From Herpomyces periplanetae (Eukaryota > Ascomycota > Laboulbeniomycetes > Herpomycetales > Herpomycetaceae), in NCBI GenBank assembly GCA_009733715.1, contig WMKJ01000017.1, positions 1 through 64,000 on the forward strand: DNA of 64,000 nt, given 5' to 3'. Of this stretch, positions 46,110 through 53,860 are shown in pieces; the stretch's first letter is position 1; each line of letters begins with the position of its first letter. The position numbers were made by a program, and so were the translations under genes. A model generated the notes under the pieces. That model saw only the letters and a list, made by a program, of their open reading frames with translations. It ran no database searches and had not been told where the DNA came from.

Positions 46110-47282
46110 CTACAACTTTTGCATGGCAACCTATAAAATTTAGTACCAGTATAAGGGTCAAAAAATGGAGTACAACTTACCACGTCAGTCGATTGAACGC
46201 ATTCCTCATCCTCCGCAATTCTCGATTGTAATTCATCAATAGAGACTTTATCGTCTTCGACGACCAAGTTAATCTGTAATTTCCTAATGCCATATCCAAC
46301 TGGTACAAGTTTTGATGCGCCCCATACCAACCCATCTTGTTCGATAGCTCGAACATTCTTTTCTAAGAGCTCCATATCCGTTTCATCGTCTGTTTATTCT
46401 TGTGGTTAGTTTTTCCGTAATCATTACTTTGTCGTATTTTATCTCAATGTGTCTACTGACCCCATGGTTTGACATCCAACGTTACGATAGATTTAGCGGC
46501 TGGCTTAACTTTTCCCTCTTTCTTTTTACGATATTCCTCCAATCTTTCTTCACGGATACGTGCTGCTTCAGCATCTTCTTCTTCGTCACTTCCGAAGAGA
46601 TCTATATCATCATCGGTGCTCTTTGTAGTTACAGTTTCTGATGCCGCTGTAGCTACTGGTCCGCCATACTCAGTGATACTTTTACCAACTGTGCCTGGCA
46701 AGCTCGAGTAGTTTGTCTCATATGTTAATATGTGTTGGTACCAGCGAGATGCATGTGGATATTTTTCTGAAGAGGGTGCAGATTTAATTTCTTTGATAAC
46801 CGTGACATCCGCTTGTGATGGTGAGTATCTTTGATTGTTGTTAGTCATTCGCACAAGTATAACTCGTTGGGACAGTTCTCATTCATGTGCACTTAAGCAA
46901 AATAATGTGTAGCTTGGAGGTCAGAAATATTTGAATTAATCGTGTTGAAATCACTTGACGGGTCTTAATCGCCTCATAAACACGGACCAATTTTTTCATC
47001 ATTCACTAGCTGCGATAAAAATTTGATTCGGAGAGAATTATATAGAAGTACATTAAAAATTCTGAACTTACCCTTCGATATAACTTCTCGTCCTCAACCA
47101 GCTGTTCAAAGCTTAAAATTTTTCGAGTCAGCGATGATAAATTAATATTGGTAATGTATATAGATTCAACAGAACTGAGAAATGACAGTTTGCTGAAATT
47201 CGACTCGACAAATTCATGGAGTGAGATTGAAATGTGTGCCCATACCCTCGAAATCCCCGTTAGCGACATTGGCAAAGCTCAT
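46110..47282 (-). CDS. EFB1: Translation elongation factor eEF1B-alpha (EF-1 beta)
   Basis: Exons on the minus strand: 47282-47246, 47111-47072, 46828-46461, 46389-46181 and 46130-46110; introns 134, 243, 71 and 50 nt; 224 residues. eEF1B-alpha exchanges GDP for GTP on eEF1A. Splicing rebuilds the whole family pattern: [18 protein letters not shown], then [18 protein letters not shown] across exons 2 and 3, ASRWYQHI, the acidic [16 protein letters not shown], and the catalytic C-domain ([48 protein letters not shown]). The last exon adds only VAMQKL. The 37-, 40- and 21-nt exons are easy to miss. Intron 2 is the longest intron I could define in the window and carries a C/D snoRNA-like sequence. 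The gene diverges from HSP78. Confidence 0.96.
46917..47006 (-). ncRNA. SNORD51: Box C/D snoRNA (U51-like) inside eEF1B intron 2
   Basis: On the coding strand of the intron: box C ATGATGA (47002-46996) and box D CTGA (46924-46921), 82 nt end to end. Between them, TTGGTCCGTGTTT (46990-46978) lies directly before a D'-like ATGA (46977-46974). A C'-like GTGATTT follows at 46954-46948. The 13-nt guide is the exact complement of AAACACGGACCAA, a universally conserved large-subunit rRNA stretch. By the five-nucleotide rule it would direct methylation of the A in AAACA. The terminal stem is weak (AGCT with AGCT, a few bases away from the boxes). From memory, human U51 sits in an EEF1B2 intron; U51/snR39-type guides target this rRNA region, though I cannot confirm the exact nucleotide. 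Confidence 0.8.
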
Positions 47283-48075
47283 TTTGATAGAAAGGTTGGA
47301 GCTTCGAAGCAGTCTAACGCTGTAGAAACTTAAGCTATATTAAGCCAGGCGATCCAAAAAATACCCCAGCGAAGCTTTAGTGTACTCTACGGATGTGTTA
47401 AGTTAACTTAACCCGTAAAATTTTGGCAACGAACAAATCGATTTTCAGCTCTTTAAAGGTTTACTGCTGTGCAAATCTCGCCTTTCCTAAATATTTCTTG
47501 GAAGTTTCCCCGGCATAAAGCCGACCTTCGCTTAATTTTGTTGCTGTGCCGAACCGGTTAAACTTCGGTCTATACCGTTACCTAATCTTGAGTGCGATAG
47601 GGTTTTTGTGATCTCGTGACTAGCAATTCTGGATCCGTGATTTTTATCGAAGAATTCTAGGCGAAGATTTTATATCTGTTATCTACGCGTCTAATTTTCC
47701 TCTACTTTCTTTTTCAATCTTCGACACTTTCATGTAGCTGCAGTTTAATATTCTTAGCTTAATTAAGCCAGAATTTTTCGGGATCAAATTTCCTGCAACG
47801 CAATATTTTCATACTTACCTTACTTGATGTGTATAAAATCAAGGTTATCTCTTTCAATTGATCATCAGGACTTATTATCTACCTAAAAGTATGGGTTCTT
47901 TCAGCTTACCGTTGTATTTTCTTCATTTTTATACACGCAGTATACTTTGTGCTGCCTTTCTAACTTATTCATTTTCCCTGCACTTCATAGCGCTTTTATC
48001 TACGATCAAACATCATTGGTGGGAAAGTTTATTCTCTACCATTACTATTCGGCAATTTGATTCCTTCCAAATATA
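47283..48075. other. 793-bp divergent promoter of eEF1B and HSP78
   Basis: One ACGCGT lies at 47685-47690. A minimal heat-shock-type GAAGTTTC (GAAnnTTC) lies at 47501-47508, 570 bp before HSP78. A CT-rich leader precedes the HSP78 ATG. Both elements are single short matches. Confidence 0.4.
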
Positions 48076-50478
48076 ATGTCTCTATCGAAAGTTAAGCGGA
48101 TTTTGCCTTGGCGTTTTATCCAGACTCCTCGACTGCAGTCAACGGAGAAGACACACCTTGTCAGCTCACTTTCACGTGCTGTCAACTATAATGGTTTAAG
48201 ATTCTATACAATCGATTTATATCGGGGAAATAATTTGTTAAATAATTCGTCATTACAACGTCGTGGCTACGCTGACAGATCGCACCATGCTCCGGGCCAA
48301 ACTCACCGAATGAACCTGGGCAACGATTCAGAGAAATCTGCTCTAGAGGAGTTTGGAGTTAATTTGACCGAACGTGTTAAAAAGGGTGACCTAGACCCAG
48401 TTATTGGAAGAGACCGAGAAATTCATAGAACTATACAAATACTCTCAAGGCGAACAAAAAACAATCCAGTTTTAATTGGATCAGCTGGAACGGGTAAAAC
48501 AGCAGTGATGTATGGTTTGGTTCAACGAATCGTTCGAGGTGAGGTACCCGAGAGTATCAAGAACAAAAAGGTTATATCATTGGACTTGGGACTTCTTATT
48601 GCTGGTGCCAAGTACCGCGGGGATTTTGAGGATCGGTTGAAACGAGTTTTAAAAGAAGTTGAAAATTCAAAGGGTGAAATTATTCTATTTGTTGATGAAC
48701 TTCACATCCTCTTAGGTTTGGGTAAAGCTGAGGGTAGCATCGACGCGAGTAACCTACTAAAACCGGCTCTGGCTCGAGGTGAATTGCAGTGCTGTGGTGC
48801 TACAACTTTAAATGAGTATCGTTTAATAGAGAAAGATGTTGCATTAGCCCGACGATTTCAATCTATTCTAGTTGATGAGCCATCAGTTCACGATACGATA
48901 TCAATACTCCGGGGCATTAAAGAAAGATACGAAGTTCATCATGGAGTACGAATTTTGGATAATGCATTAGTAGCAGCAGCAACTTATAGTAACCGATACA
49001 TTACTGATCGGTTTTTACCTGATAAAGCGATTGATTTGGTAGACGAAGCAGCGTCCGCCCTACGATTACAACAAGAAAGTAAACCTGATGCAATTCAAGC
49101 TTTAGACCGAGAAATCATGACAATCCAAATTGAGCTTGAGTCTATACGCAAAGAAACGGATCCCATATCAATTAGTCGCCGGGAGAAACTTGAAGAAAAG
49201 TTAGGAGAAAAGCAAAAAGAAGTTAACAAGTTAACGGAAAAGTGGGAAAGCGAAAAGCGTGAGATCGAACAAATTAAGGATACCAAAGAACAGTTGGAAA
49301 AGGCGCGACTGGATCTTGAGGTTGCGCGAAGAGAGGGAAATTTTGGTAAAGCTTCTGAGCTGCAATATTCAACAATTCCAAATCTTGAAAACCAATTGCC
49401 AAAAGAAGGAACTGAAGCTGGTCGTACTGCAGATGATGCACTGCTTCATGACTCCGTCACATCGGACGATATAGCAGCCGTTGTTAGCCGTGCAACGGGA
49501 ATTCCTGTCTCGAAATTAATGTCTGGTGAGGTAGAGAAACTCGTGCATATGGAGGACAAGTTACGCGAAACAGTTCGAGGTCAGGATGAGGCTTTGAAAT
49601 CGGTAGCGGATGCTGTGCGCATGCAAAGGGCTGGTCTCAGTGATGAAAATCGTCCACTGGCAAGCTTTATGTTTTTGGGACCTACTGGAGTGGGGAAGAC
49701 TGAATTATGTAAACGAATGGCTGAATTTTTATTTTCCTCATCAGCAGCGTTAACACGTTTTGATATGAGCGAGTTTCAAGAGAAACACACCCTCAGTCGA
49801 TTGATCGGAAGTCCTGCAGGATATGTGGGTTATGAAGATGCTGGACAATTGACCGAGGCTGTTCGCCGCAAACCATATACTGTATTATTGTTTGACGAAT
49901 TTGAAAAAGCACATCGGGATATTTCGTCTTTGCTATTGCAAGTATTAGACGAAGGATACCTAACCGACTCTCAAGGACATAAAGTGGACTTTCGTAATAC
50001 AATCATTGTTTTGACTAGTAATTTAGGAGCTGACTTAATTTTGCTTGACGAGCCTAAGACCAGCTCTGATGGATCCGAGGAATTGAGCTCGAAGGTTAAG
50101 GCTTCAGTGATGGATATTGTTTCTCACGCTTATCCACCAGAGTTTCTTAATCGCATTGATGAATTTATCATATTCAAACGGTTATCCAAATCAGCATTAG
50201 ATGATATTGTGGATATTCGACTTAATGAGCTGCGTGAAAAGTTGAAGGAAAAGTCTATTCATCTTGATATTCCCGAAGTGGTCAAGGTCTGGCTATGCGA
50301 TAAAGGGTACGATCCCAAGTACGGAGCACGACCACTGAACCGATTGATAGCAAAAGAGGTTGGAAATGGGTTGGCGGATCTAATTATTCGTGGATCATTG
50401 AAACCGGGAGATATAGCAAGTGCGAGAATTCGGGAAGATGGATCGGGTTTGGAGATATTCAAACTTAGTGGAAAGTAA
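48076..50478 (+). CDS. HSP78: Mitochondrial ClpB-type disaggregase Hsp78
   Basis: One exon, 800 residues, close to yeast Hsp78 (811). The AAA+ hexamer pulls aggregated proteins apart with Hsp70 in the matrix. About 75 residues at the N-terminus are rich in Arg, Ser and Leu and lack acidic clusters, as in a mitochondrial presequence; the bacterial N-domain is missing, as in Hsp78. NBD1 has Walker A GSAGTGKT (135-142; usual form GEAGVGKT), Walker B FVDELH (Asp207-Glu208) and pore loop [13 protein letters not shown] complete coiled-coil M-domain (about 350-450) follows. NBD2 has Walker A GPTGVGKT (535-542), Walker [10 protein letters not shown] (Asp607-Glu608), pore loop [12 protein letters not shown] and sensor 2 GARPLNRLI. 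It diverges from eEF1B, and MSH5 follows after only 164 bp. Confidence 0.96.
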
Positions 50479-50642: not shown

Positions 50643-53600
50643 ATGGCTAGCATCAAAGAGCGAAAGATAGGCAAAAGGAGAGGTGGAGGTCGGAGCAGGG
50701 GTGGAGGTGCTGCAGTGCGAAGAGCTACCACACGTTCAAGTGTCGCGGGTAGTACAGATTCAGTTAGTATTTCAGACACGACGAGCTCGACGCAATTAGA
50801 ACTTGAATCGCGCAGTCGGAGTATGCGTGATAGTGGTTCTTACGGTCAATCGCATATTCCAAATCCAATTAATGCGGTGGGTGGATTTAGTAATGAGTGC
50901 GAGATTCCGCGACAGTTCCTTGAAAGTGTTAGACAATATGTTGCGAGTACTTCTGATGATGATGACAATGTCGATGATGGTGGACACGCCGCGCGGAGCA
51001 GCGATGACCAATTTACTCAAGTGGTTATGGCGGTAAATATGAAAAGTCAGGGAATGGTTGGTTGCGCTTATTACGTGGGCCGTGATGAGAAACTTTATGT
51101 TATGGAAGATATGAAATATGGCAACGTTGAAATAATTGATTTGTTGAAGATGTCCATAAGCCCGACTTACATTCTAGCACCCGCAAGGTCCGATGAAGAG
51201 CTGATTGCGAAATTGGATCCTAAGTATTCCGTTGGCGAACCAAATATAAATGATTTAAATAGTACTGATATAGCAGACCAGCCGGAAGGTTACGATTTAG
51301 ACCTGAGACCTTGGGGTGAGTTCTCATGCGCGAAGGCAAAGGTTTTGCTTAGGGACATTCATGTAGAATCTCGTGATGGTATAAAGGTGTCACTTTTGGT
51401 GCCAGGGAGCGATGGGGATGACAATTCCCGCTTAACTGAGGACGATAAGATCCCGAACAGCCGTCATGTGCCGCTGGAAGAAGATTTACTTGTTCAGTTA
51501 TCAGGTTGTATTGACCTGGATTCTTCGATTTCTATGGGCTGCATTGGCGCACTGCTTTCCCACCTGATACGTCGTCGATCGATTCAATTTTTGCCGGGTG
51601 ATGTGTCCTCATCTTCTTACTTTCAGGTGTCAGATATCTTAATGTTTACGCTGTCGGATACAATGCTCATTAATCTGGAAACGCTTCATTCGTTGCAGAT
51701 AATGCAATCTGAGTCTAATCCACATTTTCATAATCAAGGGCCTACGAAATCGTCATCTCGTGGTAAGGAAGGTTTATCAGTAATCGGGCTGTTCAATCCT
51801 TTAGCGCGAACTCCACAGGGTAAAGCGCTGCTTCGACAATATTTTTTGAGACCGAGCATTAATCTCAAGACAATTGTTTCCCGACTCGACGCAGTAGAAA
51901 CATTTCAGAATCCCGAAAATGTGCATTATACCAAACAAATTCACACTTGCTTGGGTCATATAAAGAATTTGCATGTAACGTTTTATAAACTTCATAAAGG
52001 TGTATCTAGTGGAAGTGGTGGAATAGCCAAAACAGTATGGTTCACGCTTCGGGAATTTTGTTATCACACATTGGAGATTCGAGATACGATCCAAAATGTG
52101 CGAGTAAATGCACGGCATGGGGATATACGAATTATCGAGGAAATACTTGAACGTTTCAACGTGTTTCACATTTCGAATTTGGGGGGGCAGATTGAGTCGG
52201 TAATAGACTTTGAATCATCGGCACTTCAACATCGAAATGTTGTTAAACCTGGTGTTGATGCTGAGCTGGATGAGATGAGATATGAATTTGATGGATTGGA
52301 GTCCCTACTTTCTACAGTTCAAAAGGTCATGATCGAAAAGGTACCGTTGGAGGTACAAGAAGAACCACTATCAGTGGTTTATTTACCTAGGATATGCTTT
52401 TTATTGCGACTTCGTATTCCTGGGGCGGTTAAATCATCTGGACAAAATTTATACATGGGAGAGGGTATGAAAAGTCCATGGACACTTCAATTCACGGAAG
52501 GAGATTATGCATACTATAAAAGTGAAGAGATGATTGAAATGGATGAAACTTTTGGAGATCTGGCCTCATTAATTAGTGATAAAGAAATTGAAATAGTTCA
52601 GGAATTAGCTCAGCAAGTACTTCAATACGAAGACATGTTTCTTGATATGAGCGATGTTTGCGCAGAATTGGATGTACTAGTGGCATTGGCTTTGGGAGCG
52701 AATCGATTTGGATTGACTAGGCCTGAATTGACGGATGAAAATATTATTGATATTCGCGAAGGACGGCATTTATTACATGAATTGACGGTTCCGGTGTACG
52801 TGACGAACGATACATACATAGTTGGTGGATCAGGCAATGATGTAAATATGCGAAGCAAGGACGGAAGTGTACATGATGAGGCTTACGCAGAAACAAGTTT
52901 AATCACTAACACTACGTCCTGCTCAGGAACCCCTTCCATTAGTGGTGCTACTACACCGGATCAAAGATTCGTACGTAATGGGACTGGGCCAAGTATCCTT
53001 GTGATAACGGGGCCGAACTGCTCTGGCAAAAGCGTTTATATGAAACAGATCGCGATTATTGTGTACTTGGCTCATGTTGGAAGGTAAGCTAAATTTTTGA
53101 GGGATTTGATTTTGCGGGAGAAGCTTTGAAGTGTAGCGCAGTAAGTTAATTGATTAGTGGAGCTAATTTGGGGGGTGATAGTTTTGTACCGGCGATTAAA
53201 GCACGAATTGGAATAACTACGCAAATATTCACACGAATTGCAACACAAGAGTCGGTTTCGAAGTTACGAAGTGCATTTTACATTGATCTGAATCAAATAT
53301 GTGTCATGACAAAGAATGCCAATCGTAGATCACTCTTACTTATTGATGAATTTGGGAAAGGAACACTTCCGGAAGATGGTGCAGGATTGTTTTGTGGTAT
53401 AATTAAGTACTTTTTGGATCTAGGTAATGACTGTCCGAAGATATTAACTAGTACTCATTTCCACGAAGTGTTTGAACAAGGCCACTTCCCGGTTAGTCCT
53501 AGAATTGGATTTGGGTATATGGATGTTCGATTGCACAAGGAAAACAATGATTCTAGTGATAAGCAGATTACTTACTTGTACACCTTTCGTCATGGTAGAT

Positions 53601-53860
53601 CGACGGAATCGTACGGAATATTATGCGCTAGATTGTATGGAATACCAGAGAGTGTTATCAAACGAGCTGAGGAACTGAATGGATTAATGGCTCGTGGAGA
53701 AGATTTGACGGCGTGTTGTGCGATAACTAATGAGGAAGATGAACGAAAGCTTGTTGAAGCCGAAATTGTTGCACGTCGATTTCTTCAAGTTAACTGGGAC
53801 GAGGTTCCCGATGAGCAATTAAATGATACACTTAAGTCGATACTAGTGGTCGGAGGTTGA
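50643..53860 (+). CDS. MSH5: Meiotic MutS homologue Msh5
   Basis: Exons 50643-53083 and 53182-53860; intron 98 nt; 1039 residues against about 830-900 usually. Msh5 pairs with Msh4 as a clamp on Holliday junctions and promotes meiotic crossovers; it does not repair mismatches. No mismatch-recognising domain I is visible. Clamp and lever parts match Msh5 (SLFGILNR-type VIGLFNPLARTPQGKALLRQY, LGHIKN, VIDFE). The ATPase has Walker A GPNCSGKS (790-797) and, after the splice restores GSFVPA-like RSFVPAIKARIG, Walker B LLIDEFGKGT (Asp869-Glu870) and STHFHEVF. Extra length comes from an N-terminal Arg/Gly-rich stretch (KRRGGGRSRGGG) with a disordered acidic part, and a Ser/Thr/Gly insertion of about 55 residues just before Walker A. 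Its presence suggests a sexual cycle. Confidence 0.94.

Follow-up and report, generated by a model that had tools for sequence, protein, structure and literature searches.

Which small nucleolar RNA (snoRNA) lies in the eEF1B intron of Herpomyces periplanetae, and which position of the ribosomal RNA would it guide? An initial annotation of a stretch of 64,000 nt (contig WMKJ01000017.1, assembly GCA_009733715.1; hereafter the window) had described a box C/D snoRNA in this intron and proposed it as a possible fungal counterpart of U51, in a host-guest pair that might predate the animal-fungal split. Here, we found that the RNA at 47007-46917 is very probably the fungal U18 (snR18), located within intron 2 of eEF1B-alpha.

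Results

Host gene eEF1B-alpha and its surroundings

The host gene was delimited by a spliced frame, Pfam matches and a structure match, and comprised the following features:

46110..47282, minus strand: coding part of the eEF1B-alpha (EFB1-type) gene, 224 aa
47282-47246, 47111-47072, 46828-46461, 46389-46181 and 46130-46110, minus strand: the five exons, from the spliced frame
46829..47071, minus strand: intron 2, host of the snoRNA, 243 nt, with a GTAAGT donor, a GACTAAC branch-like site and an AAG acceptor

The product had an EF1_GNE domain (EF-1 guanine-nucleotide exchange; Pfam, E = 6.8e-33), also matched EF-1_beta_acid (the central acidic region), and resembled the solved yeast eEF1Ba structure in its C-terminal part (1f60_B, E = 3e-38). 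No other EF1_GNE match was listed in the assembly (13.79 Mb). The four introns measured 134, 243, 71 and 50 nt, making intron 2 the longest. Its reading as an intron is plausible from the frame and the splice signals, including the branch-like GACTAAC at 46846-46840 on the minus strand. Intron 2 is in phase 2 and splits codon 26, the Gly of SYIEG. From its SGD coordinates, the yeast EFB1 intron presumably also lies in phase 2 within the Gly codon of SYIEG; if this is right, the two introns would be orthologous, given their shared codon and phase.

Among the 120 matches listed in each protein search, eEF1B homologues were 59-68% identical and Hsp78 homologues at most 78% identical. The species named among the 120 eEF1B matches are, by the classification that we assume, Pezizomycotina. 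Judged from these protein matches rather than from a tree, the fungus looks like a member of Pezizomycotina that has no close relative among the species sampled.

The eEF1B gene and HSP78 are divergent neighbours at 47282-48076 of the window. Nine genera (Verruconis, Lepidopterella, Delitschia, Sarea, Mytilinidion, Rhizodiscina, Zalaria, Corynespora and Coniosporium) appeared in both 120-row lists with identical longest-contig figures per genus, which suggests that linkage of eEF1B and HSP78 is widespread in Pezizomycotina. Botryosphaeria dothidea was also in both lists but with differing figures (286094 and 4557172), which may come from separate assemblies. A MutS-family gene at 50643-53860 of the window, which we take to be MSH5-like, had MutS domain III and the start of domain V in the first frame scanned; it is apparently split across two long open frames, which fits an intron between 53087 and 53306.

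Architecture of the intronic snoRNA

At the level of sequence, our analysis confirmed that intron 2 of eEF1B-alpha carries an intact box C/D snoRNA with a guide for large-subunit rRNA, composed of the following elements:

46917..47007, minus strand: U18/snR18-type box C/D snoRNA, 91 nt (aligned to all of RF00093, positions 1-71, with 32.5 bits and E = 6.5e-4)
46996..47002, minus strand: C box, ATGATGA
46978..46990, minus strand: D' guide, TTGGTCCGTGTTT, a 13-nt exact complement of yeast 25S rRNA around A649
46974..46977, minus strand: D' box, ATGA, directly 3' of the guide
46948..46954, minus strand: putative C' box, GTGATTT, 5/7 to RTGATGA
46941..46946, minus strand: AACACG, able to pair with CGTGTT of the guide
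46921..46924, minus strand: D box, CTGA

In RNA letters, the order is AUGAUGA (C), UUGGUCCGUGUUU (guide), AUGA (D'), GUGAUUU (C'-like) and CUGA (D). The perfect C and D boxes of the initial annotation (47002-46996 and 46924-46921) were present, with 82 nt from the start of the C box to the end of the D box, as was the 13-nt exact complement of large-subunit rRNA followed by ATGA (46990-46978 and 46977-46974). The sense orientation within the eEF1B intron was likewise borne out by the exon frame, Pfam and the structure match. The RNA at 47007-46917 thus has RUGAUGA near its 5' end and CUGA near its 3' end, as is required of box C/D snoRNAs, and, against a minimum of at least 10 nt, a 13-nt guide antisense to yeast 25S rRNA directly upstream of D'. 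By coordinates, its 5' end is 64 nt from the donor site and its D box 92 nt from the intron end; distances to the donor in Neurospora crassa snoRNAs are given as mainly 41-60 nt (PMC2780460).

Two of the four stem pairs in the alignment to the Rfam SNORD18 model were non-standard, and predicted folds did not join the ends beside the boxes, with no clear terminal stem. By eye, a 4-bp AGCU/AGCU pairing lies outside the boxes (47011-47008 with 46914-46911). A 151-nt stretch around the snoRNA folded no better than its shuffles (z = 1.07; 170 of 200 shuffles at least as good).

Family assignment

We scanned 1.1 kb around the snoRNA against 4227 Rfam families at E up to 10, which gave seven listed matches (one lower-scoring same-clan overlap excluded). 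The best was SNORD18 (RF00093, U18), which matched end to end over the model with 32.5 bits (E = 6.5e-4) and whose alignment takes in all 11 letters, GGUCCGUGUUU, of the guide. The second by score was the Tetrahymena snoRNA TtnuCD18 (21.5 bits, E = 3.7), which has nearly the same guide. The covariance search proposed in the initial annotation yielded a family, SNORD18, but below the curators' gathering score of 41 bits, and neither U51 nor snR39 was named in any of the seven matches; at gathering level, the scan of the window returned nothing. The shortfall is probably due in part to length (91 nt vs. 71 model positions). U18 is 89 nt long in N. crassa (PMC2780460) and 95 nt long and intronic in Trichophyton rubrum (PMC3890542), as given in these studies. 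Weak RF00093 matches (E up to 10, all under the cut-off) also arose in 10 of 14 prokaryotic control genomes, so that the score alone is modest evidence.

Several observations speak for U18: SNORD18 scored highest among the families and aligned over its full length, the guide points to the counterpart of yeast A649, the host gene is a known host of U18 in fungi, and the length of the RNA agrees with that of U18 in filamentous fungi. The D' guide contains GGUCCGUGUUU, and its fifth nucleotide, counted from the D' box AUGA, is opposite yeast A649, the snR18 site. Saccharomyces cerevisiae snR18 is located in the EFB1 intron (under the name TEF5 in PMC2705663), and Candida albicans snR18 is reported as hosted by the EFB1 intron (PMC2926782).

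Chance expectation and copy number

A model of base composition only predicts 0.0019 chance occurrences of the 13-nt guide in the 64-kb window, both strands included, and about 1.2e-7 of a guide that also has a C box 3-25 nt before it and NTGA directly after it. The plain RTGATGA...CTGA pattern occurs three times in the window (two on the plus strand, one on the minus strand), and C/D boxes alone therefore prove little. A C box with the 13-nt guide was found in 31 stretches among 84,980 prokaryote genomes (257 billion bases), near the approximately 43 expected by chance in a hand estimate, on which grounds we rejected archaeal relatives of the snoRNA. Such strings are expected in a large enough database but should not arise in a 64-kb window. 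Viral relatives were rejected as well. In viral contigs, where no eukaryote rDNA was found, a C box with the 11-nt core occurred in 33 stretches. The full C-guide-D'-D order matched once in the scan of collected loci (from L001-L064), in viral contig L043, and was judged a chance match.

The Herpomyces assembly comprises 220 contigs and 13.79 Mb, which we consider small among filamentous ascomycetes. In it, exact copies of the 11-mer GGTCCGTGTTT occur three times, once in the snoRNA at 47007-46917, and the other two exact sites had no C/D architecture by eye. Allowing one mismatch gave 91 places, of which the three exact ones were inspected; a diverged U18 copy or a diverged rRNA site may be among the other 88. 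Four RF00093 matches were listed for the genome, led by the snoRNA in the eEF1B intron (32.5 bits, E = 0.0019) and followed by matches of 23.1 (E = 0.41), 17.7 and 17.6 bits. The 23.1-bit match (L066) was rejected as a second U18, as it carries GGACCGUGGU where the guide should be. A second convincing U18 copy was thus not found in the assembly by the RF00093 search and the exact 11-mer search.

Predicted rRNA target

DNAzymes directed at yeast 25S A649 and C650 give the rRNA sequence GCCCGUCUUGAAACACGGACCAAGGAGUC (PMC3938493), and in our own reading of their arms, A649 is the A of AAAC-A. The 13-bp duplex between guide and rRNA was predicted at -21.0 kcal/mol. The exact target 11-mer did not occur in rDNA context in the assembly, and complementarity was therefore assessed against yeast 25S only. 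For the whole snoRNA and the same piece of rRNA, the prediction was -29.8 kcal/mol, with pairing that runs across the D' box; we set this value aside given that the D' box is protein-bound. We rejected UAAGAC, between D' and C', as an accessory guide to rRNA GUCUUG, since 1127 of 2000 shuffled spacers paired as well.

In yeast, one U18 guide is described as methylating both A649 and C650, a double methylation attributed to a D' AUGA preceded by U together with an unusual C' box, AUGAGUGA (PMC5389607). In the same account, S1315 is the site set by the five-base rule, and removal of the additional G from C' made little difference; we read S1316 as the +6 site. The Herpomyces D' box, AUGA, is identical to the consensus for D' of yeast U18 (PMC5389607) and is preceded by the same U, while the best C' candidate, GUGAUUU, keeps the first GA and has no second GA. 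By analogy with yeast, the A649 equivalent would be methylated. Given the C' box without the second GA, the adjacent base (yeast C650) may be unmodified, and we consider it probably unmethylated.

Discussion

Alternatives to U18

The proposed identity with U51 (snR39/snR59 in yeast), as part of an eEF1B-U51 pair older than the animal-fungal split, has its basis in the vertebrate gene: a vertebrate EEF1B2 intron does host a U51-type snoRNA, and the statement that human EEF1B2 hosts U51 is paralleled by chicken, in which the RNA corresponding to yeast snR39/snR59 is in EEF1B2 intron 3 and targets 28S A1459 (PMC2653536). However, U51 and U18 have different sites in chicken 28S, A1459 and A1263, respectively (PMC2653536), and the guide in Herpomyces is that of U18. 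At D', it matches the A649 site rather than yeast 25S A807, the equivalent of the vertebrate U51 site, and among the Rfam matches up to E = 10 U18 ranked best. Fungal U51 counterparts are instead in RPL7 introns, where yeast snR59/snR39 reside and where 82% of the fungal species examined have retained the intron position (PMC8476143). Yeast counterparts in genes other than that of eEF1B, as stated in the initial annotation, hence holds for U51, with its RPL7 introns, and fails for U18, which is in the EFB1 intron.

The RPL7 locus of the Herpomyces genome itself contains a candidate:

L072 1885-1787, minus strand: candidate snR39-type C/D snoRNA in the RPL7 gene, with GATGATAT, then CCATCTTTCGGG-A-CTGA

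From the sequence of 25S rRNA, we take CCATCTTTCGGG to be a putative guide for the A807 region, which speaks against U51 in the eEF1B intron. Flanking GCTC/GAGC pairing is possible at this locus, which matched no Rfam family at E up to 1. Taken together, a U51 counterpart in the eEF1B intron is hardly credible, and the label must be given up. A shared eEF1B pair from before the animal-fungal split is likewise unsupported, given that the gene hosts different guests, U51 in vertebrate and U18 in fungi.

Two further explanations concern function rather than family. Were the element an unexpressed C/D look-alike, left by decay or arisen by chance, this would account for the sub-threshold Rfam score, for a fold no better than shuffles and for a guide that is self-paired in free RNA. 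However, the boxes and the 13-nt guide are intact, their chance expectation is around 1e-7 per window, and the host gene is a known one. Given that no second convincing copy was found in the genome and that a table in PMC3511168 assigns the A649-equivalent site to U18 in Arabidopsis, human and yeast, loss of U18 would be unusual, and we regard a look-alike as very unlikely. U18 could also be a regulated guide, masked by its own AACACG. The complementarity of CGTGTT and AACACG noted in the initial annotation is present, and their pairing is predicted in free RNA: in the modelled ensemble, 11 of 13 guide bases were paired with a probability of at least 0.94 (the two C's about half the time), and the four central pairs between guide and AACACG reached 0.98-0.99. 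Yet shuffling the non-guide part gave a six-base complement of the guide in 1945 of 20000 cases, or about 10%, the guide-rRNA duplex was predicted to be more stable than the self-fold of the whole 91-nt RNA (-21.0 vs. -13.9 kcal/mol), and shuffles of the 151-nt stretch folded as well as the stretch itself. Proteins of C/D particles keep guides open in the RNP. On these models, we see no need for a masking function of AACACG, and a self-masked guide seems very improbable. The preferred reading remains U18.

Comparison with known U18 systems

The Herpomyces RNA shares with S. cerevisiae snR18 the target 25S A649, the host gene and a D' AUGA preceded by U. In contrast, the yeast C' box is AUGAGUGA and yeast snR18 modifies A649 and C650, whereas the Herpomyces C' GUGAUUU is without the second GA. 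C. albicans snR18, likened here by host only, forms the same snoRNA-host pair (PMC2926782). With Rfam SNORD18 and vertebrate U18, the Herpomyces RNA has in common an identical GGUCCGUGUUU guide, the C and D boxes and a match end to end; it differs in its length, 91 nt vs. a 71-position model, in its score under the cut-off, and in its host, given that the chicken copies, with target 28S A1263, are listed in RPL4 introns 2, 5 and 6 (table in PMC2653536). N. crassa CD46A and CD46B (U18) are described as 89 nt, intronic and with a D' guide for 26S Am635 (PMC2780460), but as two copies, whereas the Herpomyces genome has one convincing copy. Vertebrate U51 (SNORD51) is another C/D snoRNA with an eEF1B intron as its host, yet belongs to a different family and has a different target (chicken 28S A1459; PMC2653536).

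A possible route from intron to rRNA

Splicing, expression, processing and methylation of this snoRNA are proposed here after other species. The eEF1B pre-mRNA would be spliced and the intron lariat debranched; in Fusarium graminearum, deletion of the debranching enzyme is reported to lower intronic U18. Exonucleases would then trim the intron to ∼90 nt, with the C/D core proteins protecting the snoRNA. The guide beside box D' would pair with AAACACGGACCAA of 25S rRNA, and fibrillarin/Nop1 would 2'-O-methylate the base that lies fifth from box D' and corresponds to yeast A649.

Implications

The arrangement is already known in fungi, and the Herpomyces locus is a further instance of U18 in the eEF1B gene. 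Our results correct the label of this snoRNA from U51 to U18 and add a Pezizomycotina-like ascomycete to the fungi with U18 in this host. If the pairing was inherited and not gained twice, its presence in such an ascomycete would make it older than the budding yeasts. A fuller scenario, in which the U18-eEF1B pair was present in the ancestor of Saccharomycotina and Pezizomycotina, the C' feature was lost in Herpomyces so that only the A649 equivalent is methylated, and AACACG tunes access to the guide, is unlikely as a whole. Given that the D' residues match those of yeast and the C' box does not, the Herpomyces snoRNA would be a straightforward test case, provided by nature, for the published explanation of how U18 methylates two bases.
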